A DNA stretch of 64,000 nt. Source: an uncultured bacterium. GTDB taxonomy: Bacteria > Cyanobacteriota > Vampirovibrionia > Gastranaerophilales > Gastranaerophilaceae. The DNA lies in assembly GCA_949300485.1 (NCBI GenBank), contig CASGEL010000004.1, positions 1 to 64,000 on the forward strand, in the 5' to 3' direction. The position numbers and the translations under genes were made by a program. Position 1 is the first letter of the stretch. Each line of letters begins with the position of its first letter. The notes below the pieces were generated by a model. It ran no database searches. It was given only the letters and a program-made list of their open reading frames with translations, and was not told the DNA's origin. Shown here in pieces: positions 4,972 to 41,173 of the stretch.

Positions 4972-6823
4972 CTAATTCCTCAATAATTTTTTTGTTATCG
5001 TTTGCAAATTTTGAACCTCGTGCAATAATTGCTTTTTTTAGCAATCTAGGCAGATCTATTGTTTGCATCTGTTCAAAATTGTTTGGAAGTCTAAGACTCC
5101 AGTTTTTGTCTCCTGATGTTCCCGGAACATTGTATGTTTCTGTCATATTAAAATAATCAGTAAAGAAAATTTGAATGTTTTCAGCTTGACAAGCAAATAA
5201 TTCAACAAGTTTTGTCTCTTTTAGAAAATCTGCATCGTTAGTCATTTTAACAATAAGAGCATCTTTATCGTCAGCTTCTTTAAATAAGTCTTCTACAAGG
5301 TTTTTTACATGCAAATACCCTTCATGCGTATGAACCATATTATTAGCCCAAACGGTTACCGGTTGATTGTCATGTGTTCCTATCATTGCCCAGCATTTTT
5401 CTGTAATATTTTTACATCTATATGGATCGTCAGGTTCAGTAGGTACTGTAAATTGGGTTAATCTCATGCCTAACAGTTCGTATTCTTTCATAACTGCTGC
5501 AACAGGATTTGTTAGAGTGCCTAAATCTTCACAAACTATTGAATCTTTGGTTAAACCTTCTTCGGTAGCTGCAGCGATAACAATTTTTTCAATAAGTCTA
5601 CCATATAATTTTATTTGCTCATGGGATAATGATTTGACTCTTTTTTCATTATCTGGGCTTAATGTTTCATCCAAATCTTCTAGTTTTGCAATTGAGTATT
5701 TCTTTAATTCAGGATGTTCAGGAGATGAATATAATCTTCCAGCACCTTGCTCTGGCATAGGTTTTTTCCCGACTTTATATACCCATGGGTCTATAAGTCC
5801 TACTATATGATCAATTCTGACCCCTCCAGGGTTTTCTCTAAACATTTTTTTATATAGGTTTTTCATTAAAATTCCTGCTTCACCTAATGAACCGTCTTCA
5901 TTAAACATTTTGTCAGGATCAATTACCGGAAATCCCCATGCTTGTCCGTCTTTAGAAAAATAATCCGGCGGACAGCCCAAATACCATCCTTCTAAAAATA
6001 GTGATTGATATGCCCAAGTATCTCTGTCTGAAAATGCAACTTGTCTGTCTGCAATCATTTTGATACCTTTTGAGTCAGCATATTTTTTTGTTTCTAGATT
6101 TTGTTTATAAAGTACAAATTGAATAAATTTATATTTATCAATTTCTTTTGTATATTTTTTTGAGATTTCATCTATTCTCTTACCGTATTCTATTTTTTCT
6201 TCAATAGATTTTGGATTGAATAAATTTTTATCAGCTTTGTTTTTCCAATTTGGCCAAAAATCAGTTCCATGCTCAATTGATAACGCTTCGTATAAACTAT
6301 CTTTATCAAGCCAAGAATCATTTTCAATTTTATAAACTTCAAATTCTTTGTTCAGATTGTGGTTATTCAATTTGATAAAGTTGTCATACGCTTCAGATAG
6401 AGCCTGAGCCTGGCGTTTTGTTATATATGAATAGCTTGTTTTATTTTTATCTTTGTTAGGATTATTTGCGACGATATCGTTAAAAGTTTCAATAGATAAA
6501 ATTTTAAACCATTTGTCTGTCGTAAGCTGTTTTAGGTCAATAAATAAAGGATTGTTTGAAAAAATAGTTCCAGTATAAGGCGAAGAATCAGACATTTTAG
6601 TTTTTCCTGCCGGACCCATTTGAATTGCGTCAAAAAGTCCTGCTGCGTAATTTATGAAATTTTTGCCTGCAGTAGAATTACTTGTTCCAAATCCTGTATT
6701 TTCACTATCTAAAGAAGGGAAGCTCCCATTATGCATAATAAATACAAAATTTTTCTTTCCAAGGATTTTCAACGCTTTTCTAATAGTGCTTATTTTGCTA
6801 GTGTTATCCAATGTACAAACCAT
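4958..6823 (-). CDS. malQ: 4-alpha-glucanotransferase (amylomaltase, GH77)
   Basis: This enzyme transfers alpha-1,4-glucan segments between maltodextrins in glycogen and maltose metabolism. The GH77 catalytic residues are visible: nucleophile D338 in GVRIDHIVG, acid/base E432 in CEDLG, and transition-state stabiliser D485 in GTHDN. The substrate region around residues 258-280 (FSDRDTWAYQSLFLEG) and 295-303 (AWGFPVIDP) is also family-typical. The length of 621 aa lies within the family range. AAGGGG precedes the ATG. The gene begins 47 nt after tRNA-Lys with no clear promoter between, so it may be co-transcribed with it. The TPR/NHL gene overlaps its 3' end. Confidence 0.93.
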   Translation of the reverse strand: MVCTLDNTSKISTIRKALKILGKKNFVFIMHNGSFPSLDSENTGFGTSNSTAGKNFINYAAGLFDAIQMGPAGKTKMSDSSPYTGTIFSNNPLFIDLKQLTTDKWFKILSIETFNDIVANNPNKDKNKTSYSYITKRQAQALSEAYDNFIKLNNHNLNKEFEVYKIENDSWLDKDSLYEALSIEHGTDFWPNWKNKADKNLFNPKSIEEKIEYGKRIDEISKKYTKEIDKYKFIQFVLYKQNLETKKYADSKGIKMIADRQVAFSDRDTWAYQSLFLEGWYLGCPPDYFSKDGQAWGFPVIDPDKMFNEDGSLGEAGILMKNLYKKMFRENPGGVRIDHIVGLIDPWVYKVGKKPMPEQGAGRLYSSPEHPELKKYSIAKLEDLDETLSPDNEKRVKSLSHEQIKLYGRLIEKIVIAAATEEGLTKDSIVCEDLGTLTNPVAAVMKEYELLGMRLTQFTVPTEPDDPYRCKNITEKCWAMIGTHDNQPVTVWANNMVHTHEGYLHVKNLVEDLFKEADDKDALIVKMTNDADFLKETKLVELFACQAENIQIFFTDYFNMTETYNVPGTSGDKNWSLRLPNNFEQMQTIDLPRLLKKAIIARGSKFANDNKKIIEELDEIQ

Positions 6824-6870
6824 TTTTACCCCTTCTTATTTTGACTATAACCCTAAATTCTTATAAAAAA

Positions 6871-6943
<73 letters not shown>

Positions 6944-6960
6944 ATTTATAAGACAAATTT

Positions 6961-6990
6961 ATTTTATCATAAAAGATATTTATAAGTAAA
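6961..6990 (-). promoter_or_regulatory. putative promoter for tRNA-Lys (and possibly malQ)
   Basis: Read on the minus strand, TTTACT (6990-6985), an 18-nt spacer and TAAAAT (6966-6961) preceded by TGA give a TGN-extended -10 element, 17 nt before the tRNA 5' end. Confidence 0.5.
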
Positions 6991-7000
6991 TAGTAAATAT

Positions 7001-7030
7001 AAAAAAAGACCTCAATGGAGGTCTTTTTTG
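7001..7030 (-). terminator. terminator of glnA (bidirectional sequence)
   Basis: A long perfect stem (AAAAAGACCTC / GAGGTCTTTTT) with a 4-nt loop lies 23 nt past the glnA stop. The flanking A and T tracts allow it to work on either strand. Confidence 0.85.
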
Positions 7031-7052
7031 TATTAATATTTGAAGAAAAATT

Positions 7053-8417
7053 TTAATATCTTTCAAGGTATCTATCCAATTCCCATTGGGAAACGTAAGT
7101 TCTAAACGCATCCCATTCTTTTTTCTTAGAAGTCATAAATTCTTTATAAATATGATCTCCTAGTGCAGCTTGAGCAACAAGTGATTTATCAAGGTTTTCA
7201 AGAGCTTCCGCAAGGCTGCCAGGTAAGGAATCTATTCTTTGTTTTTTGCGTTCTTTAGATGTTAATTTATATATATTACTTTCCACAGGAGCCGGTGGAT
7301 CTATTTTGTTTCTGATACCATCAAGACAAGTTTCAAGTATTGCTGCAAATGCTAAATATGGATTGCATGCAGGATCAGGTGATCTAAGTTCGACTCTTGT
7401 AGAAACCCCTCTTTTGGCAGGAACTCTTAATAATGCGCTTCTGTTTGCTAATGACCAAGCCAGATAAACCGGAGCTTCATATCCTGGAACCAATCTTTTA
7501 TAACTGTTTACAATCGGATTAGTAATTGCAGTTATGCTTTTTACATGTTTTAGTAAGCCACCGATTGCATACTTAGCGGTTTCTGATAATTGGTATTCTG
7601 ATTTTTCGTCATAAAATGCATTTTTTCCATCTTTGAATAGTGAAATATTACAATGCATGCCTGAACCATTAATCCCAAAAATAGGTTTTGGCATAAAGGT
7701 AGCGTGCAGATTATGTTTTGCAGCAATTGCTTTTACTGCAATTCTAAATGTTGTAACATTATCTGCTGCTGTCAAAATATCTGCGTATCTAAAATCAATT
7801 TCATGCTGTCCGTCAGCGACTTCATGATGAGATGCTTCAATATCAAAGCCCATTTCTTTTAGAGTTAGTACTATATCCGATCTAACATCTTCTCCAAGAT
7901 CTTCTGGTCCGACATCATAGTAACCTGCGTGATCTTGAGTTTTGGTTGTGACATTTCCGTCTTTGTCTTTTGCAAAGAGGAAAAATTCAGCTTCAGGACC
8001 AATATTCATTGAAAATCCCATCTTCTCTGCAGCTTCCATAACTCTTTTTAAATTGCATCTTGGACATCCTTCAAATGGGGTTCCATCAGCATTATAAATA
8101 TCACAAATTAATCTAGCAGCATTTATTCCATTGTGTTCTCTCCAAGGCAGAATTTGAAAACTGTTTATGTCAGGGTGGAAAAACATATCGGAAGTTTCAA
8201 TGCTTCTAAAACCTTTGATAGACGATCCGTCAAGCATAATTTCATTATTTAACGCTTTTTCTATATGCTCAGATGGTATTGACATATTTTTTACTTGGCC
8301 GTTTATATCCACAAATTGCAGTTTTATAAATTTAATATTGTACTGCTTAATTAAATCCTTAACTTCTTCCGGGGTAAATTTTTTTCCGTCTAACCTTGTG
8401 TGTGTAAATTTTGTCAT
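7053..8417 (-). CDS. glnA: glutamine synthetase type I (GSI-alpha)
   Basis: This enzyme makes glutamine from glutamate, ammonia and ATP. Family motifs include LDGSSIKGF, DIYNADGTPFEGCPR, the metal/glutamate site GPEAEFFLF, ASHHEVADGQHEIDF, and NSYKRLVPGYEAP. The end region NIYKLTSKERKKQRIDSLPGS is of the GSI-alpha (Bacillus/Thermotoga) form. There is no NLYDLP-type adenylylation tyrosine. The start at 8417 (454 aa) is chosen because GAAAGAGG sits 5 nt before that ATG, whereas an in-frame ATG 27 nt upstream lacks a site. Aligned with B. subtilis GlnA from memory, the residue matching feedback-control Arg62 appears to be Ser (GFRSIETSD against GFVRIEESD). A good promoter precedes the gene and a strong terminator follows it. 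Confidence 0.96.
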   Translation of the reverse strand: MTKFTHTRLDGKKFTPEEVKDLIKQYNIKFIKLQFVDINGQVKNMSIPSEHIEKALNNEIMLDGSSIKGFRSIETSDMFFHPDINSFQILPWREHNGINAARLICDIYNADGTPFEGCPRCNLKRVMEAAEKMGFSMNIGPEAEFFLFAKDKDGNVTTKTQDHAGYYDVGPEDLGEDVRSDIVLTLKEMGFDIEASHHEVADGQHEIDFRYADILTAADNVTTFRIAVKAIAAKHNLHATFMPKPIFGINGSGMHCNISLFKDGKNAFYDEKSEYQLSETAKYAIGGLLKHVKSITAITNPIVNSYKRLVPGYEAPVYLAWSLANRSALLRVPAKRGVSTRVELRSPDPACNPYLAFAAILETCLDGIRNKIDPPAPVESNIYKLTSKERKKQRIDSLPGSLAEALENLDKSLVAQAALGDHIYKEFMTSKKKEWDAFRTYVSQWELDRYLERY

Positions 8418-8468
8418 ACTAACCTCTTTCCTGAATCCTGTCATTTATTTTTTTAAGATTACTTTACT

Positions 8469-8497
8469 AGAATAAGAATTTTATTTCTAAAGGTCAA
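8469..8497 (-). promoter_or_regulatory. promoter of glnA
   Basis: On the minus strand TTGACC (8497-8492), a 17-nt spacer and TATTCT (8474-8469) form a near-consensus housekeeping promoter. It predicts a leader of about 45 nt before the glnA start. Confidence 0.7.
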
Positions 8498-8603
8498 GTT
8501 CTTTCTTATAAAGAATATATAAAGGTATTTTATGTATTTTGTTTTTTGAAAGAAATTTTATATTTTTTTTTCTAAATATAAAAATATTTTTGTATTTTGC
8601 AAT

Positions 8604-8654
8604 AAAAAAAGACCCGATTTAAATTTTTTTGATTTTAAAATCAGGTCTTTTTTT
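8604..8654 (-). terminator. terminator of panD (bidirectional sequence)
   Basis: AAAAAAAGACC...GATTT pairs with AAATC-AGGTCTTTTTTT around an AT-rich loop of about 16 nt. It lies just past the panD stop at 8688 on the minus strand. Confidence 0.75.
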
Positions 8655-8687
8655 AAATTTTGAATTTTAAAAAAAGTTAACAATTGT

Positions 8688-9041
8688 CTACTGTTTGATA
8701 ATTTTATTATTGTCATCAACTATAACAATTGTTGGTTTGTGATCAGCAATTGCTGTTTCTTCGAAATATCCATAAGCAACAATAATAACTTTATCTCCTG
8801 GCTGAGCTTTTCTAGCTGCAGCTCCGTTAAGACATATTTGTCCAGATCCAGGTTCTCCTTTAATTACATAGGTTTGAAATCTTTCGCCGTTGTTTACATT
8901 TAGAATTTCAACTTTTTGCCATTCACGTATATTGGCAGCTTTCAAAAGGGATTCATCAATAGTGATAGAACCTACATAATTAAGGTTTGCATCTGTAACC
9001 GCTGCTCTGTGTATTTTTGAGTATAAAAATTCTAATAACAT
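8688..9041 (-). CDS. panD: aspartate 1-decarboxylase proenzyme
   Basis: This pyruvoyl enzyme makes beta-alanine from aspartate for pantothenate and coenzyme A. The self-cleavage site Gly24-Ser25 is intact in YVGSITID, and Ser25 becomes the pyruvoyl group. Residues K9, Y22 and R54-region motifs, NGAAARK and [11 protein letters not shown] are family-typical. The length of 117 aa is normal. GAGGT precedes the ATG. It is monocistronic with its own terminator; no other pantothenate gene is present in the window. Confidence 0.95.
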
Positions 9042-9113
9042 TTTTCTTACCTCGCTTAAATATTATATAACAAACAATAATAATTAACAGAGGTAATATT
9101 TCATTGCAAATAT

Positions 9114-9149
9114 TATAGAAGCCCCCGATTATAACCGGAGGCTTCTATA
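9114..9149 (-). terminator. strong hairpin between the CopG-type gene and panD
   Basis: A 14-bp stem TATAGAAGCCTCCG / CGGGGGCTTCTATA with a 7-nt loop contains one G-U pair. There is no T tract on either side, so it may be a weak terminator, an mRNA-stabilising structure or an attenuator before panD. Confidence 0.5.
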
Positions 9150-9189
9150 ATGTTTCCCAAATCTTTCGCCTTATCCCTTACCAGCTTGA

Positions 9190-9378
9190 TTATTGCAACA
9201 ACGACTCCAGTAAATTTGCATTTTGGAGTGCACCTGTTGATTCTTTAATCTTTTGTTTGTAAATGTAAGTTCTGAGTGCCTCTCTGATAAGTTCACTTCT
9301 TGAACGATTTTCACCTTCTGCAACTTGGTCAATTCTGTTCAAAAAATCCTCAGGCATTGAAATTAATACTCTAGCCAT
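9190..9378 (-). CDS. ribbon-helix-helix (CopG-type) DNA-binding protein
   Basis: The 62-aa protein has the beta-alpha-alpha layout of the CopG/MetJ fold. The strand is ARVLISMPEDFLNRID, helix A is QVAEGENRSRSE, and helix B is LIREALRTYIYKQK. Such proteins dimerise and bind DNA with the N-terminal strand. AAGGAGA precedes the ATG. Many relatives are antitoxins, but no toxin-like ORF adjoins: the next element downstream is a hairpin and then panD. It is therefore more likely a stand-alone regulator, with an unknown target. Confidence 0.8.
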   Translation of the reverse strand: MARVLISMPEDFLNRIDQVAEGENRSRSELIREALRTYIYKQKIKESTGALQNANLLESLLQ

Positions 9379-9552
9379 ATATTCTCCTTTTTACTTTATG
9401 TGGTCGCTGATTGCTTATATTATTATAAAAAATTTTATATTGAAAAAAGTGCTAAAAAGTATGTAAAAAATATATATTAAATTTTAAAAGTCTTGTTATT
9501 ATTGAGTTTATCGGTATTTATTTTATTTAATATTTCTTAATAATTGAGAAAA

Positions 9553-10530
9553 TCAGCCCAAAATTATAGCAATACATGCTAAAAGCATGAATAAGGTTAC
9601 AATGTTTCTTGAATAAAAAAATCTAAAATAAAAACTTGCTTCTGGAGTATCTTTAATTTGCTTCCAATTATCAAGCGGATAGTGCCAGATATATACATTC
9701 GGGAGTTGATTTTTATTTTTATTGTATAGTCTTAGGGAGTTATAAAGGTCTAAAATTAGCGGAATTGTCAGATATGTAAGATAAAACCAATGGTTATGCA
9801 ATGATTGTGCGATTAGACCTATAAGAATATAGCTGGAAACATAGAATATGAGTATAAAATTTAGTGCATTAGTCTTAGTTTTTAATTTTCGGCAGAGAGT
9901 AATTTTATGCGAGCATTCATCTCCGTCAAAATCCATAAGCATATGTGCATATAATATTGTATTTGTAAATAATGCGCAGGCTAGTGAAAGTATAAATATT
10001 TCTTTAGAAAAGCTTTTTGTCATGACATAATATACACCTTCAAACATCAATGGGCCATATGCTATTATGACTGCAATTTCTCCTAATCCGATAATTGATA
10101 ATTTTGGGTAGATTATCGCTATTATAAGAGCAATAATTGCCAATAGTAAAACATAAGGACCTGATATAAAAAATAATAGAGCTCCTATTATAGATGCTAG
10201 TGCTAAAAAGATTATAATTGCCGTTTTTAACTCTTTAACTGTTGTTTGATTATTTTTTAGGTATGCACATTTGCAGTGTTGAGCAGAATTCATGTATTTT
10301 TCATCCTTAAGTAAAATTTTATAATCAAAATAGTCATCAATTAGGTTTGTAGCCATATGAACAAGGCTTATTCCAATAAGAGCAATCAATCCTGCAAGTA
10401 TACATCCATTATATTTAGTAGAATATATGAAAGCTACAAGCCAGCTTAAAATTGTAATCGGCAGAGAATATACCCTTGCACAATTCAGCCAAAATTTTAT
10501 ACTTTTAATAATATTTCTTATATTATTCAT
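9553..10530 (-). CDS. UbiA-family polyprenyl (MenA-like) transferase
   Basis: This is a polytopic membrane protein with about eight or nine hydrophobic helices over 325 aa. The first Asp-rich motif of the UbiA family is visible as NLIDDYFDY (about residues 62-70), close to the NLxNDYxD of MenA. The second is DFDGDE (about residues 200-205). These residues bind Mg2+-prenyl diphosphate. The family attaches prenyl chains to aromatic acceptors in quinone and related lipid synthesis; the acceptor here is unknown. It follows a 74-aa ORF by 4 nt in the nanE operon, an unusual partnership because no menaquinone genes are nearby. A Cys cluster (AQHCKCAY) lies in the loop after motif 1. Confidence 0.75.
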   Translation of the reverse strand: MNNIRNIIKSIKFWLNCARVYSLPITILSWLVAFIYSTKYNGCILAGLIALIGISLVHMATNLIDDYFDYKILLKDEKYMNSAQHCKCAYLKNNQTTVKELKTAIIIFLALASIIGALLFFISGPYVLLLAIIALIIAIIYPKLSIIGLGEIAVIIAYGPLMFEGVYYVMTKSFSKEIFILSLACALFTNTILYAHMLMDFDGDECSHKITLCRKLKTKTNALNFILIFYVSSYILIGLIAQSLHNHWFYLTYLTIPLILDLYNSLRLYNKNKNQLPNVYIWHYPLDNWKQIKDTPEASFYFRFFYSRNIVTLFMLLACIAIILG

Positions 10531-10534
10531 AATA

Positions 10535-10759
10535 TTATTTTTTAAAGATATTCTTAATAGCTACAACCGATTCATAACTTGCACCAGCTTCAAGTAACTC
10601 TTCAGCATCCAGGCCAAACATTGTGATTATATCTTTAGCTTCATTTTGGATATTGGCATTTAGTAATTTAGCTGCATTTTTTGTAGCATCTTCTCTTGTA
10701 ACTTTTGTTATTTGGTCATTTATTCCTTTTCTGAAAATTCTGGATTTTGATTTACCCAT
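10535..10759 (-). CDS. small unknown protein in the nanE operon
   Basis: The 74-aa protein has a basic N-terminus (MGKSKSRIFRKG) and a helical C-terminal half (AKDIITMFGLDAEELLEAGASYESVVAIKNIF). It belongs to no family I recognise. The start overlaps the end of the ROK kinase by 8 nt and the stop lies 4 nt before the UbiA-type gene, so it is translated within a tightly packed operon. The C-terminal half could form a small three-helix bundle. The coupling on both sides argues that it is a real gene. Confidence 0.6.
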   Translation of the reverse strand: MGKSKSRIFRKGINDQITKVTREDATKNAAKLLNANIQNEAKDIITMFGLDAEELLEAGASYESVVAIKNIFKK

Positions 10760-11636
10760 TTAAATCTCCTTTTCCAAAGGCAAGCAGAGCCGCTCCTATC
10801 ATCCCTGAATAGTTTCCTGCTGTGGCTTTGTAAATTTTGGTTGGAGATGTCACAATTTCTTTATTAACTTTTTGTTCTACAAGTTGAGTATCAACAAATT
10901 GAGCCAATGAACCTGATAACACAATGCATTCTGGATCAAAAAGATTTGCCAGTCCGATAAATCCTGCAATAATATCACTATGCCATCTGTTGTATATTTC
11001 AATCATTTGAGCATCCTTTTTATTTACCCCATCAAATATATCGTAGGTTGTAATATCCGGATTTTTTGTTATTTCTATGGCCGTTTTTGTTAATCCAGGG
11101 CCAGATGTATATATTTCAAAACAGTCCCAACCTCCGCATGTACATTGTCTTCTTTGATCGGGATACATTTTGAAATGCATAGCTCCTGCAGCTCCGCTTT
11201 TACCCTTGAATAAATGCTTGTTGATAATTATACCGCCACCAACACCTGTTCCAAAGGTTACCATAACAGAGGTTGCTGTTCCTTTTGATGCTCCGATTTT
11301 ATATTCAGCCCATGCTGCGCAGTTGGCATCATTTTCTACAAATACTGGTTTTGTAGACAGGCTAGAGAAAGCCATTGTCGGATATTCTTTTGCAATATTG
11401 CCAGTAGAGCCTACAATTTTTGTATTTTCATTATTTACTTCACCGCAAGTGGAGAAAGCAATTATATCGACATCGTTCTCGTGTTTGTTTATAATTTCTT
11501 TGAACTGTTGTTCAATTTCAGTAAATGTCTTTGGAGTGTGATGCTTTTCTATTTCCCCGATAATTTCTCCGTTTTCGTTTATAATTGCGTTATATATTTT
11601 GGTTCCGCCAACATCAATTGCAAGAGCTTTTTTCAT
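10752..11636 (-). CDS. ROK-family sugar kinase, probable N-acetylmannosamine kinase or glucokinase
   Basis: ROK kinases phosphorylate hexoses or N-acetylhexosamines with ATP. The phosphate loop DVGGTK is at residues 8-13, the catalytic region is ENDANCAAWAE, and the nucleotide site is GTGVGGGI. The ROK zinc site is present as H...CTCGGWDC (one His, three Cys). The length of 294 aa is typical. The GEIGH signature reads GAMHF here. Two genes upstream in the same operon is nanE, which argues for NanK (ManNAc to ManNAc-6-P). Glucokinase is the alternative, since glycogen genes are also near. Its ATG overlaps the preceding stop in an ATGA junction. Confidence 0.88.
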   Translation of the reverse strand: MKKALAIDVGGTKIYNAIINENGEIIGEIEKHHTPKTFTEIEQQFKEIINKHENDVDIIAFSTCGEVNNENTKIVGSTGNIAKEYPTMAFSSLSTKPVFVENDANCAAWAEYKIGASKGTATSVMVTFGTGVGGGIIINKHLFKGKSGAAGAMHFKMYPDQRRQCTCGGWDCFEIYTSGPGLTKTAIEITKNPDITTYDIFDGVNKKDAQMIEIYNRWHSDIIAGFIGLANLFDPECIVLSGSLAQFVDTQLVEQKVNKEIVTSPTKIYKATAGNYSGMIGAALLAFGKGDLNG

Positions 11637-35053: not shown

Positions 35054-35440
35054 ATGCCAACCATTAATCAGCTAGTACGTTCTGAACGTAAAAAGCTTAA
35101 GGACAAAACTAAATCTCCTGCTTTGATGAATTGTCCTCAAAGACGTGGAGTATGTACAAGGGTTTATACTACAACCCCTAAAAAACCAAACTCAGCACTT
35201 AGAAAAGTTGCCAGAGTCAGATTAACTAACGGATTTGAAGTTACTTCATACATCCCTGGTATTGGACATAACCTGCAAGAACACAGTGTTGTTCTTATCA
35301 GGGGTGGTCGTGTAAAAGATTTACCTGGTGTTCGTTATCACATCGTACGTGGTACTTTAGATACTGCAGGTGTAGCTAACAGAACTCAAAGCAGATCTAA
35401 ATATGGTGCTAAAAAAGATTCAAAGGGAGGTAAGAAGTAA
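35054..35440 (+). CDS. rpsL: 30S ribosomal protein S12
   Basis: S12 lies at the decoding centre of the 30S subunit. The 128-aa sequence has the conserved streptomycin-region motifs [18 protein letters not shown] and [30 protein letters not shown], with the sensitive-type Lys in KKPNS. AAAAGGAG lies 5 nt before the ATG. Its TAA overlaps the rpsG ATG (TAATG). As in most bacteria it is followed by rpsG, but fusA and tuf do not follow. Confidence 0.98.
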
Positions 35441-35910
35441 TGTCAAGACGTTCTAAACCTGCAAGAAGAATACCTTTAGCAGATCCGGTTTATAATAGCG
35501 TTGATATTTCTAAATTTATTAACAGAATTATGAGACGCGGTAAAAAATCTTTAGCTGAAAAGATTTTCTATGCTACTATGGAAAAAATTAAGGAAAGAAC
35601 AAATCAAGATCCTATTGAAATTTTCCAAAAAGCTATGACTAATGCTACTCCGTTATTGGAAGTTAAGGCTCGCCGTATTGGTGGTTCAACTTACCAAGTT
35701 CCTATCGAAGTTAAAGCAGACAGAGGTTTTGCATTATCTTCATCTTGGTTGATTGAATCTGCTAAGAAAAGAGGCGGCAAATCATTTATTGAAAAATTAA
35801 CAAATGAGTTAATTGATGCTTCTAACGGTCAAGGTTCAGCTTGCAAAAAACGTGAAGATACTCACAAAATGGCAGAAGCTAACAAAGCATTTGCTCATTA
35901 CAGATACTAA
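35440..35910 (+). CDS. rpsG: 30S ribosomal protein S7
   Basis: S7 nucleates assembly of the 30S head. The 156-aa protein is of standard length with the motifs INRIMRRGKKSLAEKI, NATPLLEVKARRIGGSTYQVP and HKMAEANKAFAHYRY. AGGGAGG in the end of rpsL serves as its ribosome-binding site, and the two genes overlap by 1 nt. A strong terminator ends the operon, so fusA/tuf must be elsewhere. Confidence 0.98.
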   Translation: MSRRSKPARRIPLADPVYNSVDISKFINRIMRRGKKSLAEKIFYATMEKIKERTNQDPIEIFQKAMTNATPLLEVKARRIGGSTYQVPIEVKADRGFALSSSWLIESAKKRGGKSFIEKLTNELIDASNGQGSACKKREDTHKMAEANKAFAHYRY

Positions 35911-36028: not shown

Positions 36029-38068
36029 ATGCAATTAGATTCAGCAAATGAAGAAGAGATATCTGTGCAGAATAATTATGCTTCTTTGGCTGACTTATGC
36101 AGGGCTCTGTCTATATCAACCGCGACAGGAAAAAATTGGGTAAGGTTAGGAAAACTTCTTCCGTCCGTTATGATTGGCAATTCTCCGTTTTTTACGTATG
36201 AGTATATTGGTAAATTAAAGGAAAATATACAAAGCGGTGTAATTTCTGTATTAAAAAATCGTCGAAATAAGAAATTTGTTTCAGGCGAGAGCAGGGTTTA
36301 TCAATCGTATCTTTCTAGAGAGTCTGATAATATCTTTGTTATTCAATCTATTATTGATATTATTCATGATAGGAATATTGAGGTTACAGAACCTTTATTA
36401 TTGGCATTAGTTGCAGATTGCGCAGTCTGGCTGATTCTCTCTAAAACAAATCCTATGCTTTCTTGTGGTGGTTTAGCTGCATTTTTGAAAGGCGCTTATT
36501 CAGACGTTTCTTATATGTATTTAGTTGAGGATTTACTTTCTGATGATTTATTGATTAAGAAGTATATAGAATCCTATCCTGAGTTGTTTGAAAATCATTA
36601 TGTTTATGAAGAAGGCGAAGATATAATTGGTTTGTTATATATTTCATTAAAAAATATTGCAGCAAGAAAGTCTGCAGGAGCATATTATACTCCTGCAAAT
36701 ATTGTTAAACGTCTGTGCAGCAGGCTGTTTAGTTTAAATGATTTTGCGGGAAAGACTGTTCTTGATCCTTGCTGCGGTACCGGTAATTTTATCCTTCAGC
36801 TTCCTGCATGTATAAGTTATGAAAATGTATATGGTAATGATATTGATCCAATAAGTGTAGCTATTTCAAGAATAAATTACGCATTGAAGTATAGTATTTG
36901 TGATAGAAATATTATATATTCGCATATTACACAGAGTAATTATCTTCTGTCTGAAAATAATATCAAATATGATTTTATAATAGGTAATCCTCCTTGGGGA
37001 TATGATTTTTCTCAAAAAGATAAGAGGATTTTTAAAAACAAGTATTTTTCTGTCAAAGGGTCTAATATTGAATCCTATGATTTATTTGTGGAGCAGTCTT
37101 TAAAGTACTTACAAGAAGGTGGAGTGTTATCATTTGTTCTACCAGAGGCTTTTTTGAATGTTAAGGCTCATATGCCTGTCAGAACTTTACTCTTAGAAGT
37201 TTCTTCTGTTCAATATATAGAGTATTTAGGGGAAGTTTTTGATAGAGTTCAGTGCCCGAGTATAATATTACAATTGAAGTATAATAATAAACCATTTTGC
37301 ACTTCTGGAACTATTGTTAATGATGGAATAAGAGATTTTATTATTAGTAGTGATAGAGATTGTAATGCTGAATGTCTTCAGTTTCGCATTACAGATGAAG
37401 AGTATACTTTGTTGAGAAAGCTTGATTCGATAGAGAATAAAACGACTTTAAAAAATAATTCAATTTTTGCTCTTGGAATAGTTACCGGTAATAATAAAAA
37501 ATATATTTCCTCTGAATATACTGATGGTAAGGAAATGATATTGAAAGGTTCTGATATTTATAAATTTAAATTTAAAAAATCTAATAATTATATCAAATTT
37601 AATCCTGAAGTTTTTCAACAGGTCGCTCCTATTGAGTATTATAGAGCAGATGAAAAACTGTTTTATCGTTTTATATCAGAGAAGTTAGTTTTTGCTTATG
37701 ATGGGGAAAAATCCCTTTCTCTTAATAGTTGTAATATTTTGATCCCAAAATTTAATGATTTGAATATTAAGTATATTATGGCTATTTTGAATTCACGACT
37801 CGCTCAGTTTTATTTTAATAAAAAGTTTAATTCCGTCAAAGTTTTGCGCTCTCATTTGGAACAAATACCTATTCCTCATATTCCTTCTTCTTTTCAAAAT
37901 TCAATAGTAAAAATTGTTGATTTAATTTTGAAAGCAGATGAGAATAATGAACTTTTGAAAATGTATGACTATTTGGATCGTCAAATTTCGATTTTATATA
38001 ATTTGTCTGAAAAAGAGTATTTATTGATAAAAGCATCATTAGACAATAGAGATTTGTTATTGCTTTAA
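36029..38068 (+). CDS. N6-adenine DNA methyltransferase, Eco57I/TaqI type, orphan
   Basis: The 679-aa protein has an N-terminal helix-turn-helix-like segment (residues ~18-50, LADLCRALSISTATGKNWVRLGK) and a helical region. The methyltransferase core has PANIVKRLC, SAM motif I DPCCGTGNF and catalytic motif IV GNPPW. A C-terminal TaqI-type target-recognition domain follows (ILKGSDIYKFKF, KLVFAYDGEKSLSLNSCNILIPK, ILNSRLAQFYF). It would methylate adenine in a specific DNA site. I see no nuclease motif in the protein and no restriction gene beside it. It is therefore an orphan methylase or a type IIG enzyme with an unrecognised nuclease. It is convergent with the next gene with only 1 bp between stops. 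Confidence 0.88.
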   Translation: MQLDSANEEEISVQNNYASLADLCRALSISTATGKNWVRLGKLLPSVMIGNSPFFTYEYIGKLKENIQSGVISVLKNRRNKKFVSGESRVYQSYLSRESDNIFVIQSIIDIIHDRNIEVTEPLLLALVADCAVWLILSKTNPMLSCGGLAAFLKGAYSDVSYMYLVEDLLSDDLLIKKYIESYPELFENHYVYEEGEDIIGLLYISLKNIAARKSAGAYYTPANIVKRLCSRLFSLNDFAGKTVLDPCCGTGNFILQLPACISYENVYGNDIDPISVAISRINYALKYSICDRNIIYSHITQSNYLLSENNIKYDFIIGNPPWGYDFSQKDKRIFKNKYFSVKGSNIESYDLFVEQSLKYLQEGGVLSFVLPEAFLNVKAHMPVRTLLLEVSSVQYIEYLGEVFDRVQCPSIILQLKYNNKPFCTSGTIVNDGIRDFIISSDRDCNAECLQFRITDEEYTLLRKLDSIENKTTLKNNSIFALGIVTGNNKKYISSEYTDGKEMILKGSDIYKFKFKKSNNYIKFNPEVFQQVAPIEYYRADEKLFYRFISEKLVFAYDGEKSLSLNSCNILIPKFNDLNIKYIMAILNSRLAQFYFNKKFNSVKVLRSHLEQIPIPHIPSSFQNSIVKIVDLILKADENNELLKMYDYLDRQISILYNLSEKEYLLIKASLDNRDLLLL

Positions 38069-38069
38069 G

Positions 38070-39683
38070 TTAGAGTTTACTTCTTATATTTTTTAGATCT
38101 GCTTCAGCATCAGTAAGCAATGTAACATTGTATTTTTTTCTGAATGTATCAAGTACTGAAGGATTGATAATTGTTGGAGAACATTGATCCATATAGATGT
38201 TTTTAGCATTTGAATTTGTTAATGTGATTATATTTGATATAGACATAACATCACAAGTTGTAAAGAAAAATACCAATTTATTACTAGTTATCGGATATTT
38301 ACGGAAAATTTGGCTAAGAATATTTGTTGCAAGCGGTATATAGTTGCCTATAGGTATTGTTAAAACATTATTTCGTTCGCTTGCATATGAAAAACTTATT
38401 ACATATTCACTATCATTTAAATTTGAAAATAATTTATTAAAATATTCTTTTTGAAGTTCTAAATGAGCATCAATTCCTACAATATATAATTTTTCAAGTT
38501 CATTATTATTCAATTTCTCAATAATTTTATTAATTTTCTCTTTTATTTCAACTTCATTATAACCTAGTATTGTATCTTCTTTTATTTTACCCTTTGAAAA
38601 TCCTTTTGCGTTTTCTGCAGAGTCTATGAGTTCCGAATAATCATCATTTTCTATTTTTATAACTCCGTTAGGAACTATATAGTCATTTGAAAATAGTCTG
38701 CCTCTATATAAGTATTCGGAGGTATTTTTTGAATTTTTTGTAATAAGAATTGAGCCTGGAAATGTTGCAAAATCAAGTATGCAGTTTTCGGTAAGATTGC
38801 CGAAATGTCCGCGTAAATGTTCAAATTCGCTGAATCGTTTAAGTGCATGTGTAATAAGTAAATTAGAATGTGTATAGACATCTATCTCTTTGTCTTTAGT
38901 GCATTCTAACACTTTTAATAAATCAAAAAAATTGTTTCCTGATACAAGAATGGCTTTCCCTTTTCTTGTTGAGTGTGAAACTTTTACTTTTGAGATGCCT
39001 CCAAATGTGTCAAGAAGTAATTGGCTTATTTTTAGCTGTAGTGCACTGTCAAGTTTTGCAAGTTCATCTATTGTTTCTTGAATTTTTCTATTAGAAACTC
39101 TATGATGGTTAAATAAATCAAGTGTGGTAAGTATTTTGTGATAAATGTTTTCGTCAAAACTATTGTAATCGCATAGTTTTATCATGTTTAGGCTTATACT
39201 TTTTATCACAATTAATAGTATTGTTATTAAATTCTTTTGTTCTGTCGTTAATCTTTTATATTTATCAAGAAAGATCTTCTCACCCATTGCTATTGCCTGG
39301 GAAAGTGTTGTTTCTTTTTTTAATTTAGTGATTCTTCTCAGTTCTTTTGGTGGAATATTTTTTTTTGTGCATATTTCATTATATGTTTTCTGAGCATCAG
39401 TAAGCAGGTAATATTCTTTTTGAATGATATCAAATAGCTGTTTATCATTAAATTCGTTTATTGAAATCAAACTGGCAAGAAATGTTATTATTTCGTATTT
39501 TATATTTTCATTATTTGCACCAAGTTCTTCTAGCTCAAGTATGTAATGTGCAAGATTTTGCAAAAGTGCGATTGCAAGTTCTTGCAGTGCCGAAATCGTT
39601 GGAGAAATTGAACATGCTCCCCTTGAAGTACATTCGTTTATGTCTATATATGTATTTTTATATTCATTATTATTGTATGGCAT
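38070..39683 (-). CDS. hybrid-cluster-protein (hydroxylamine reductase) homologue lacking most metal ligands
   Basis: The 537-aa sequence follows Hcp. CTSRGACSISPTISALQEL matches the GCTxKGxCGKxPExAALQDL region, and KAILVSGNNFFDLLK, DVYTHSNLL and FATFPGSILITKNS match the central domain. Canonical ligands are missing: the N-terminal CxxC pair is gone (only C18 and C24 remain), the GHD His is Asn (SGNN), the THSE Glu is Asn (THSN), and the TNC Cys is Ser (TKNS). One later Cys-Asp (TTCD) is kept. A normal 4Fe-2S-3O cluster therefore seems impossible, and hydroxylamine/NO reductase activity should not be assumed. A glutaredoxin gene lies 2 nt upstream in the same operon. Confidence 0.75.
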   Translation of the reverse strand: MPYNNNEYKNTYIDINECTSRGACSISPTISALQELAIALLQNLAHYILELEELGANNENIKYEIITFLASLISINEFNDKQLFDIIQKEYYLLTDAQKTYNEICTKKNIPPKELRRITKLKKETTLSQAIAMGEKIFLDKYKRLTTEQKNLITILLIVIKSISLNMIKLCDYNSFDENIYHKILTTLDLFNHHRVSNRKIQETIDELAKLDSALQLKISQLLLDTFGGISKVKVSHSTRKGKAILVSGNNFFDLLKVLECTKDKEIDVYTHSNLLITHALKRFSEFEHLRGHFGNLTENCILDFATFPGSILITKNSKNTSEYLYRGRLFSNDYIVPNGVIKIENDDYSELIDSAENAKGFSKGKIKEDTILGYNEVEIKEKINKIIEKLNNNELEKLYIVGIDAHLELQKEYFNKLFSNLNDSEYVISFSYASERNNVLTIPIGNYIPLATNILSQIFRKYPITSNKLVFFFTTCDVMSISNIITLTNSNAKNIYMDQCSPTIINPSVLDTFRKKYNVTLLTDAEADLKNIRSKL

Positions 39684-39685
39684 AG

Positions 39686-39922
39686 TTAGTCCTTTTTGTA
39701 ATTTTTTAGATAATTTATTATGTCTTCAGATTCATATATTTTTTCATTTGTATTTTCATTGTATAAGAATGGTACTTGATCTTTTCCTCCTATTGAAAGT
39801 AACCGTAGTACATTATCATTATCGTTTGTGTCAAAAATATTACAGCTTATCTTGTTTTGATCCATGTATTTAATAACTTTTTGACAATATGGGCAGGTAG
39901 GAATAATAAATAGATCAATCAT
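39686..39922 (-). CDS. glutaredoxin-like thiol oxidoreductase
   Basis: The 78-aa protein has the glutaredoxin active site C-P-Y-C at residues 10-13 (IPTCPYCQKVI) and the cis-Pro region QVPFLY of the thioredoxin fold. It likely reduces disulfides or handles thiols of a partner. AAGGAGA precedes the ATG. Its stop is 2 nt before the hybrid-cluster-like gene, implying a functional pair. Confidence 0.88.
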   Translation of the reverse strand: MIDLFIIPTCPYCQKVIKYMDQNKISCNIFDTNDNDNVLRLLSIGGKDQVPFLYNENTNEKIYESEDIINYLKNYKKD

Positions 39923-40048: not shown

Positions 40049-41173
40049 ATGAATAAGAAGAATATATTATTTGTTTTTGGGACAAGACCAGAAGTTATAA
40101 AACTGGCTCCTATAATATTAGAAATGAAAAAATATCCTGAGAGATATAGGGTTATATTATGTAATACAGAACAACAAAAAGAGCTGTCAAATCAAACACT
40201 TTCATATTTTGGATTGCAGGCTGATATAAATTTGAATTGTATGAAAGATAATCAAACCTTGATAGAAATACAAACAAGAATTTTGTCAGCATTAGATAAA
40301 GTTTATACAGATAATCCTGTTGATGCTACTATTGTTCAAGGGGATACAATGACTGTGCTGTGCGGTGCATTGGCAAGTTTTTACAGAAAAATACCGGTTT
40401 TCCATGTTGAAGCAGGTCTGCGTTCTTATGATATATATGAACCGTTTCCGGAAGAAATTATGCGCCAAATGACTTCAAGGGTTGCAGAACTTCATTTTGC
40501 ACCTACTGAAAAAAATAAGAAGGCTTTGTTAAAAGAGGATATTTCAGATAATAAAATTTATGTTACAGGAAATACTGTAATTGATGCTTTATTCTGTCTG
40601 TCTGAAGCTACTATGGATAAAGCTAAGGCATTTTATGAAGAGCAGCAAATAAATATTGACGATAAAGTTATATTGATTACTGTTCACAGACGTGAAAATC
40701 ATGGTGAGCGTCTTGACAGAATATTAAATGCTATTGAGTTTTTGGTAAAGAATTACAGTGATCATAAATTTATTATACCTGTACATCCAAATCCTAATGT
40801 AAGGTGTAAGATATATGAACGATTGGGTGACTTTGATAATGTATACTTATTAAAGCCTTTGGATTATCCTTATCTTGTTTATTTAATGAAAAATGCAAAG
40901 CTTATATTGACAGATTCTGGAGGAATTCAGGAAGAGGCACCCTCTTTTGGTTGTCCAACGTTAGTTATGCGTTATGAAACAGAACGACAAGAAGGGATTG
41001 ATGCTGGGGTGTCTGTTTTGGTGGGTGCAGAGTACGATAAAATAACCTCATTTGCCTCAGAAATTCTATCAAGATCTAGAGAAGATTCTAGATTAAAAGC
41101 TCAAAATCCATATGGAAACGGAGAATCAGCTTCTTTAATTGAACATATTATATACAACCATTTTAATAAATAA
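40049..41173 (+). CDS. wecB: UDP-N-acetylglucosamine 2-epimerase (non-hydrolysing)
   Basis: This enzyme interconverts UDP-GlcNAc and UDP-ManNAc for surface polysaccharides. The motifs are FGTRPEVIKLAPI at the N-terminus, QGDTMTVLCGALAS, HVEAGLRSYDIYEPFPEE, TVHRRENHGE, PVHPNP and LTDSGGIQEEAPSFG. The 374-aa length is normal. There is no Shine-Dalgarno; a TATACT (40032-40037) lies 11 nt before the ATG, so the leader would be very short. It stands outside the polysaccharide locus at 50-64 kb but probably feeds it. Confidence 0.95.
   Translation: MNKKNILFVFGTRPEVIKLAPIILEMKKYPERYRVILCNTEQQKELSNQTLSYFGLQADINLNCMKDNQTLIEIQTRILSALDKVYTDNPVDATIVQGDTMTVLCGALASFYRKIPVFHVEAGLRSYDIYEPFPEEIMRQMTSRVAELHFAPTEKNKKALLKEDISDNKIYVTGNTVIDALFCLSEATMDKAKAFYEEQQINIDDKVILITVHRRENHGERLDRILNAIEFLVKNYSDHKFIIPVHPNPNVRCKIYERLGDFDNVYLLKPLDYPYLVYLMKNAKLILTDSGGIQEEAPSFGCPTLVMRYETERQEGIDAGVSVLVGAEYDKITSFASEILSRSREDSRLKAQNPYGNGESASLIEHIIYNHFNK

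Follow-up and report, generated by a model that had tools for sequence, protein, structure and literature searches.

The locus described here raises the question of what function a hybrid-cluster protein (Hcp) homolog can have once the ligands of its metal clusters are gone, and whether the glutaredoxin gene at its side has a part in it. Two open reading frames on the minus strand of the analyzed stretch of 64,000 nucleotides (the window) are concerned. A preliminary description had presented them as a glutaredoxin paired with an Hcp homolog that has lost its cluster ligands, and both are present as described, with 78 and 537 amino acids and a distance of 2 nt between the stop of the glutaredoxin gene and the start of the hcp-like gene. 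The product of the latter is given the working name HcpL. The features of the locus are as follows:

35054-35910, plus strand: rpsL and rpsG, the opposite flank, identified from the sequence (synteny families f2 and f3)
38070-39683, minus strand: hcpL, encoding a 537-aa Hcp-fold protein without hybrid-cluster ligands, assigned by open reading frame, profile and predicted fold
38181-38183, minus strand: codon of C501, a new cysteine at the Thr of GPTLP in Hcp, present in 86/92 relatives
38253-38255, minus strand: codon of C477, a new cysteine at the Tyr of WYEQ in Hcp, present in 86/92 relatives
39612-39632, minus strand: C18-x5-C24 (codons 39630-39632 and 39612-39614), the distal pair of the ancestral cubane motif, placed by alignment
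39686-39922, minus strand: grx, encoding a 78-aa CPYC glutaredoxin (GST-N-like), the first gene of the two-gene operon, assigned by profile and adjacency
40049-41173, plus strand: wecB-like UDP-GlcNAc 2-epimerase gene, the divergent flank, named from the sequence (synteny family f4)

The Hcp backbone that had been recognized by eye is borne out by profile, sequence, and structure comparisons. HcpL matches the Pfam family PF03063 (Prismane) with 80.6 bits (cut-off 27, E = 1.3e-22) and E. coli Hcp (7de4) with an E-value of 4.4e-28 in a phmmer search, and it is the sole Prismane protein encoded in the window's genome. The AlphaFold2 model (pLDDT 88.3, pTM 0.88) displays the Hcp fold: the best Foldseek matches are all solved Hcps (8cnr, E = 3.6e-25) and VIA-align scores against solved Hcps lie at Z 31-36 (1e1d, Z 32.2 over 509 residues). 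Residues 1-23 of the model, which make up most of the former cubane segment, have a pLDDT <50; in a class III Hcp, mutation of one cubane cysteine left the same domain disordered (PMC10502027).

HcpL thus shares its fold with the Hcps (hydroxylamine reductase; PF03063, TIGR01703; class I/II) over nearly the full length, in a like domain order and with many non-ligand motifs in common (SG, YTH and FPG). It differs from them in the loss of all seven hybrid-cluster ligands and of the cubane CxxC, a shorter C-terminal ligand loop, the gain of C477 and C501, and a score of 180.5 bits against TIGR01703 (the NCBIfam hydroxylamine-reductase equivalog), far under the cut-off of 360.8. The Ni,Fe-CODHs belong to the same superfamily fold (Z about 20), but HcpL is nearer to Hcp in sequence and structure and lacks the C-cluster set of Cys and His ligands, the equivalent columns being N, N, S, D, Y, and G. 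The name hydroxylamine reductase should therefore not be applied to HcpL, which does not pass the tests on ligands, cysteine motif, and equivalog score, and annotations of this kind in Gastranaerophilales genomes are not reliable at face value.

The ligand columns were read from an alignment of the window protein and 92 ligand-poor relatives with 38 canonical Hcps, using Desulfovibrio-type numbering (H244, E268, C312, C406, C434, C459, and E494). These seven ligands of the hybrid cluster are common to all Hcp classes (PMC10502027), and in HcpL their columns contain Asn, Asn, Ser, Asp, Tyr, Gly, and Asp, that is, none of the seven, with the C459 column the least certain because it sits in a shortened loop. 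The alignment bears out the changes from His to Asn, Glu to Asn, and Cys to Ser that had been named before; the loss is real but its extent was understated, as Cys406, Cys434, Cys459, and Glu494 are also gone. Among the 92 relatives, the ligand identity is kept at C312 in none, at C406 in one, at C434 and E494 in two each, at H244 in three, and at E268 in 13, and the C459 column is without any cysteine. The first two cysteines of the cubane motif (CxxC), already reported as missing from HcpL, are absent from all 92 relatives as well, leaving the N-terminal four-cysteine motif incomplete, and the last two persist as C18 (80/92) and C24 (82/92). The cysteine columns filled in >60% of the 92 relatives are 18, 24, 105, 477, and 501, and no others. 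The possibility that the ligands are preserved at shifted positions is ruled out by these cysteine columns together with the ligand columns.

In the phylogenetic tree the ligand-poor proteins form one clade (100/100 support), and homologs were identified in 279 out of 289 good-quality genomes of the Gastranaerophilales family (356 out of 383 of all genomes) and in 39 out of 41 genera, counts that may include the canonical paralog among the weaker matches. The proposal of a distinct subfamily is supported by this clade and its distribution. The closest named relative comes from a Candidatus Gastranaerophilales MAG, which places the window in this lineage. Relatives were sampled within the Cyanobacteriota and the subfamily may extend beyond this phylum; a plasmid collection returned, among the matches listed, only Hcps with ~22% identity. 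The HcpL clade is joined by two proteins of a neighboring family (f3), in which E268 and C312 are the only ligands left, and clade and f3 proteins together fall among the phylum's canonical Hcps (100/99 support). The two f3 proteins (L131, 6021-7676; L157, 2645-4300) are partly degenerate Hcps without C477 and C501 and represent an apparent evolutionary intermediate; a genome that contains such an intermediate (G481) also encodes a canonical Hcp. No close homolog with a full ligand set was found. About a third of the family genomes that were sampled (66 genomes with a best E <1e-100) encode, in a gene of its own, a canonical full-ligand Hcp (~511 aa), and this paralog shares the fold family with HcpL but is distant from it, with a full ligand set, a separate clade, and ~20% sequence identity.

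Complete loss of the ligands is what would be expected if hcpL were a decaying, non-functional copy of hcp. However, homologs are nearly universal across the 39 genera, the reading frames are open in most genomes, the new residues are invariant, and dN/dS values between close pairs are 0.04-0.15, making decay an extremely improbable explanation. Purifying selection acts on hcpL, and distribution and dN/dS rule out a pseudogene at the level of the whole family.

The thiol-based role that the preliminary description had proposed receives indirect support from two pairs of cysteines; C477/C501, the more informative pair, had gone unnoticed. Both residues are absent from canonical Hcp, and C477 immediately precedes the position of the former Glu494 ligand. 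Both cysteines are found in 86 of the 92 relatives, neither in the remaining six, and one alone in none; they behave as an obligate pair. On the tree the two columns change four times each and all four changes coincide (sign test, p = 0.125, a test that cannot reach significance with only four events). The relatives without the pair carry G/F, S/F, I/W, or F/R in its place and still keep hcpL, and no other conserved column differs alongside in these six proteins. A thiol pair fits this better than a new metal site, because no other conserved position changes together with C477 and C501. In the model each of the two cysteines lies three residues past the end of a strand in a beta-alpha-beta unit (strands 470-474 and 495-498), and judging from this placement they are likely to be close in space.

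The glutaredoxin gene upstream of hcpL is equally as described: its product carries the CPYC motif and matches PF00462 (Glutaredoxin) with 30.5 bits (cut-off 22.9), the best Pfam match being GST_N_3 (46 bits). It shares the CPYC, QVPF, and YESDDII motifs with the N-terminal domain of Glutaredoxin 2 and the GST_N-type glutaredoxins; unlike Glutaredoxin 2, it is a stand-alone protein (75-80 aa) that scores under the GrxB equivalog cut-off. Homologs of both enzymes of glutathione synthesis are encoded in the window's genome (GCS2, 123 bits; GSH-S_ATP, 153 bits). A glutaredoxin gene is located directly upstream of hcpL in at least 15 genera (median gap 3 nt), and in many of these the grx-hcpL site is fixed between wecB and rpsG-rpsL (the wecB-like flank and the rpsL/rpsG flank are each kept in 23 out of 41 loci compared). 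The same place is occupied in genera g8, g18, g32, and g41 by a Grx3-type glutaredoxin that differs from that of the window, and the presence of two glutaredoxin types at one site in different branches makes a chance adjacency unlikely. The pairing therefore extends to much of the family but not to all of it, as about half of the genera have no glutaredoxin beside hcpL. Several genera without the adjacency contain the same glutaredoxin elsewhere in the genome without shared neighbors, and no close homolog of the window's glutaredoxin was found in genera g22, g33, g6, and g12, all of which keep C477 and C501. A strict dependence of HcpL on an adjacent glutaredoxin is out, given that the glutaredoxin is encoded elsewhere or was not found in several genera. 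The active site reads CPYC in most relatives and is the monothiol CPYS in some (genera g8, g14, g17, and one g35 genome). Adjacent CPYS glutaredoxins were observed in L081, L159, L111, L112, L115, and L117, and in L081 and L159 they coincide with the loss of C477/C501 and C18.

Ligand loss, the retained fold, constraint on the gene, the paired cysteines, and the frequent glutaredoxin operon favor a reading in which HcpL would be a metal-free thiol/disulfide protein built on the Hcp scaffold and reduced by glutaredoxin. We give an even chance to this reading taken jointly with the loss of both metal centers, that is, that HcpL, judged by its residues, would carry neither the hybrid cluster nor the cubane any longer. 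C477 and C501, predicted to lie just past two consecutive strands of the C-terminal Rossmann-like domain, on the edge of the former hybrid-cluster site, would form a reversible disulfide or dithiol, and C18/C24 would possibly form a second pair at the former cubane site. The co-transcribed glutaredoxin, fed by glutathione, would pass electrons to HcpL and reduce its disulfides, and HcpL would act as a metal-free thiol/disulfide oxidoreductase or as a redox-controlled binding protein. The data suggest the conversion of a metalloenzyme into a thiol protein free of metal. A more specific version, which we put forward tentatively and consider rather unlikely, is that both Hcp metal centers were swapped in place for cysteine pairs (C18/C24 for the cubane and C477/C501 for the hybrid cluster) to give a two-site thiol relay that obtains its electrons from a dedicated glutaredoxin and not from the Hcr reductase. 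Counted against the thiol/disulfide reading are the missing adjacency in about half of the genera, the CPYS active site of some partners, and the six relatives that retain the gene without C477 and C501.

In one alternative, HcpL would be a pseudoenzyme or scaffold whose Hcp fold binds a ligand or a partner, with C477 and C501 in a structural role (packing or a static disulfide) and an incidental glutaredoxin linkage. The gene outlasts the loss of both cysteines, their replacements resemble packing substitutions, and the glutaredoxin adjacency is limited to some lineages, all of which this alternative would accommodate. Against it stand the two unrelated glutaredoxin types in the same operon position and the fact that static disulfides are unusual in the cytosol; we see it as possible, with a probability clearly short of even. 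A remodeled metal site, where C477 and C501 together with H272, H279, H293, and D304 bind another metal or a small Fe-S cluster that the glutaredoxin donates, would agree with the location of C477 directly beside the former Glu494 ligand, and with the CPYS partners in some operons, as monothiol glutaredoxins often carry Fe-S clusters. However, C477 and C501 co-vary with no further residue, several members with both cysteines have Gln, Asn, or Asp in place of H293, and neither H293 nor D304 is new, both being found in canonical cyanobacterial Hcps (L148, L149). The presence of H293 and D304 in canonical Hcps and the co-variation of C477 and C501 alone reduce the metal site to an improbable rival, and the smaller cluster considered in the preliminary description finds no support, as no group of at least three conserved candidate ligands is kept or lost together.

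That description had also raised a role in (de)nitrosylation, whereby HcpL would keep the nitrosylation function of Hcp by means of its thiols and glutaredoxin or glutathione would remove the nitroso group. A role of E. coli Hcp in protein transnitrosylation has been reported and is debated (PMC10210160), and thiols and glutaredoxin are both available at this locus. Nevertheless, the NO chemistry proposed for Hcp needs the hybrid cluster (PMC10210160), for which HcpL has no ligands, and no nitrosylation-specific signature was found for HcpL, leaving this a very unlikely explanation.

The literature searched contained no description of HcpL, nor of Hcp in the Gastranaerophilales or Melainabacteria, an abundant and poorly characterized gut lineage related to the cyanobacteria in the case of the former. 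That a ligand-free subfamily is nearly universal in the Gastranaerophilales means that the scaffold of Hcp serves some purpose even when the cluster is gone, and HcpL can help to sort the roles reported for Hcp into those that need the cluster and those for which the fold and thiols alone are enough.

Three further observations concern the organization of the gene and its surroundings. In the window, a gene encoding a 679-aa N6 DNA methylase with Eco57I and TaqI-like C-terminal domains (36029-38068, plus strand) is located between hcpL and rpsG; in most relatives hcpL directly adjoins rpsG with no methylase between, and the methylase gene looks like a recent insertion. Shorter HcpL proteins of 474-511 aa, in which the loop at ~426-434 is deleted and C477 and C501 are kept, are encoded in L083-L088 and L091 (genera g3, g21, g26, g36, g37, and g39). 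Finally, one locus (L132 in genome G011, 6020-10885) contains three tandem divergent copies of hcpL, two of which are without one or both of C18 and C24.
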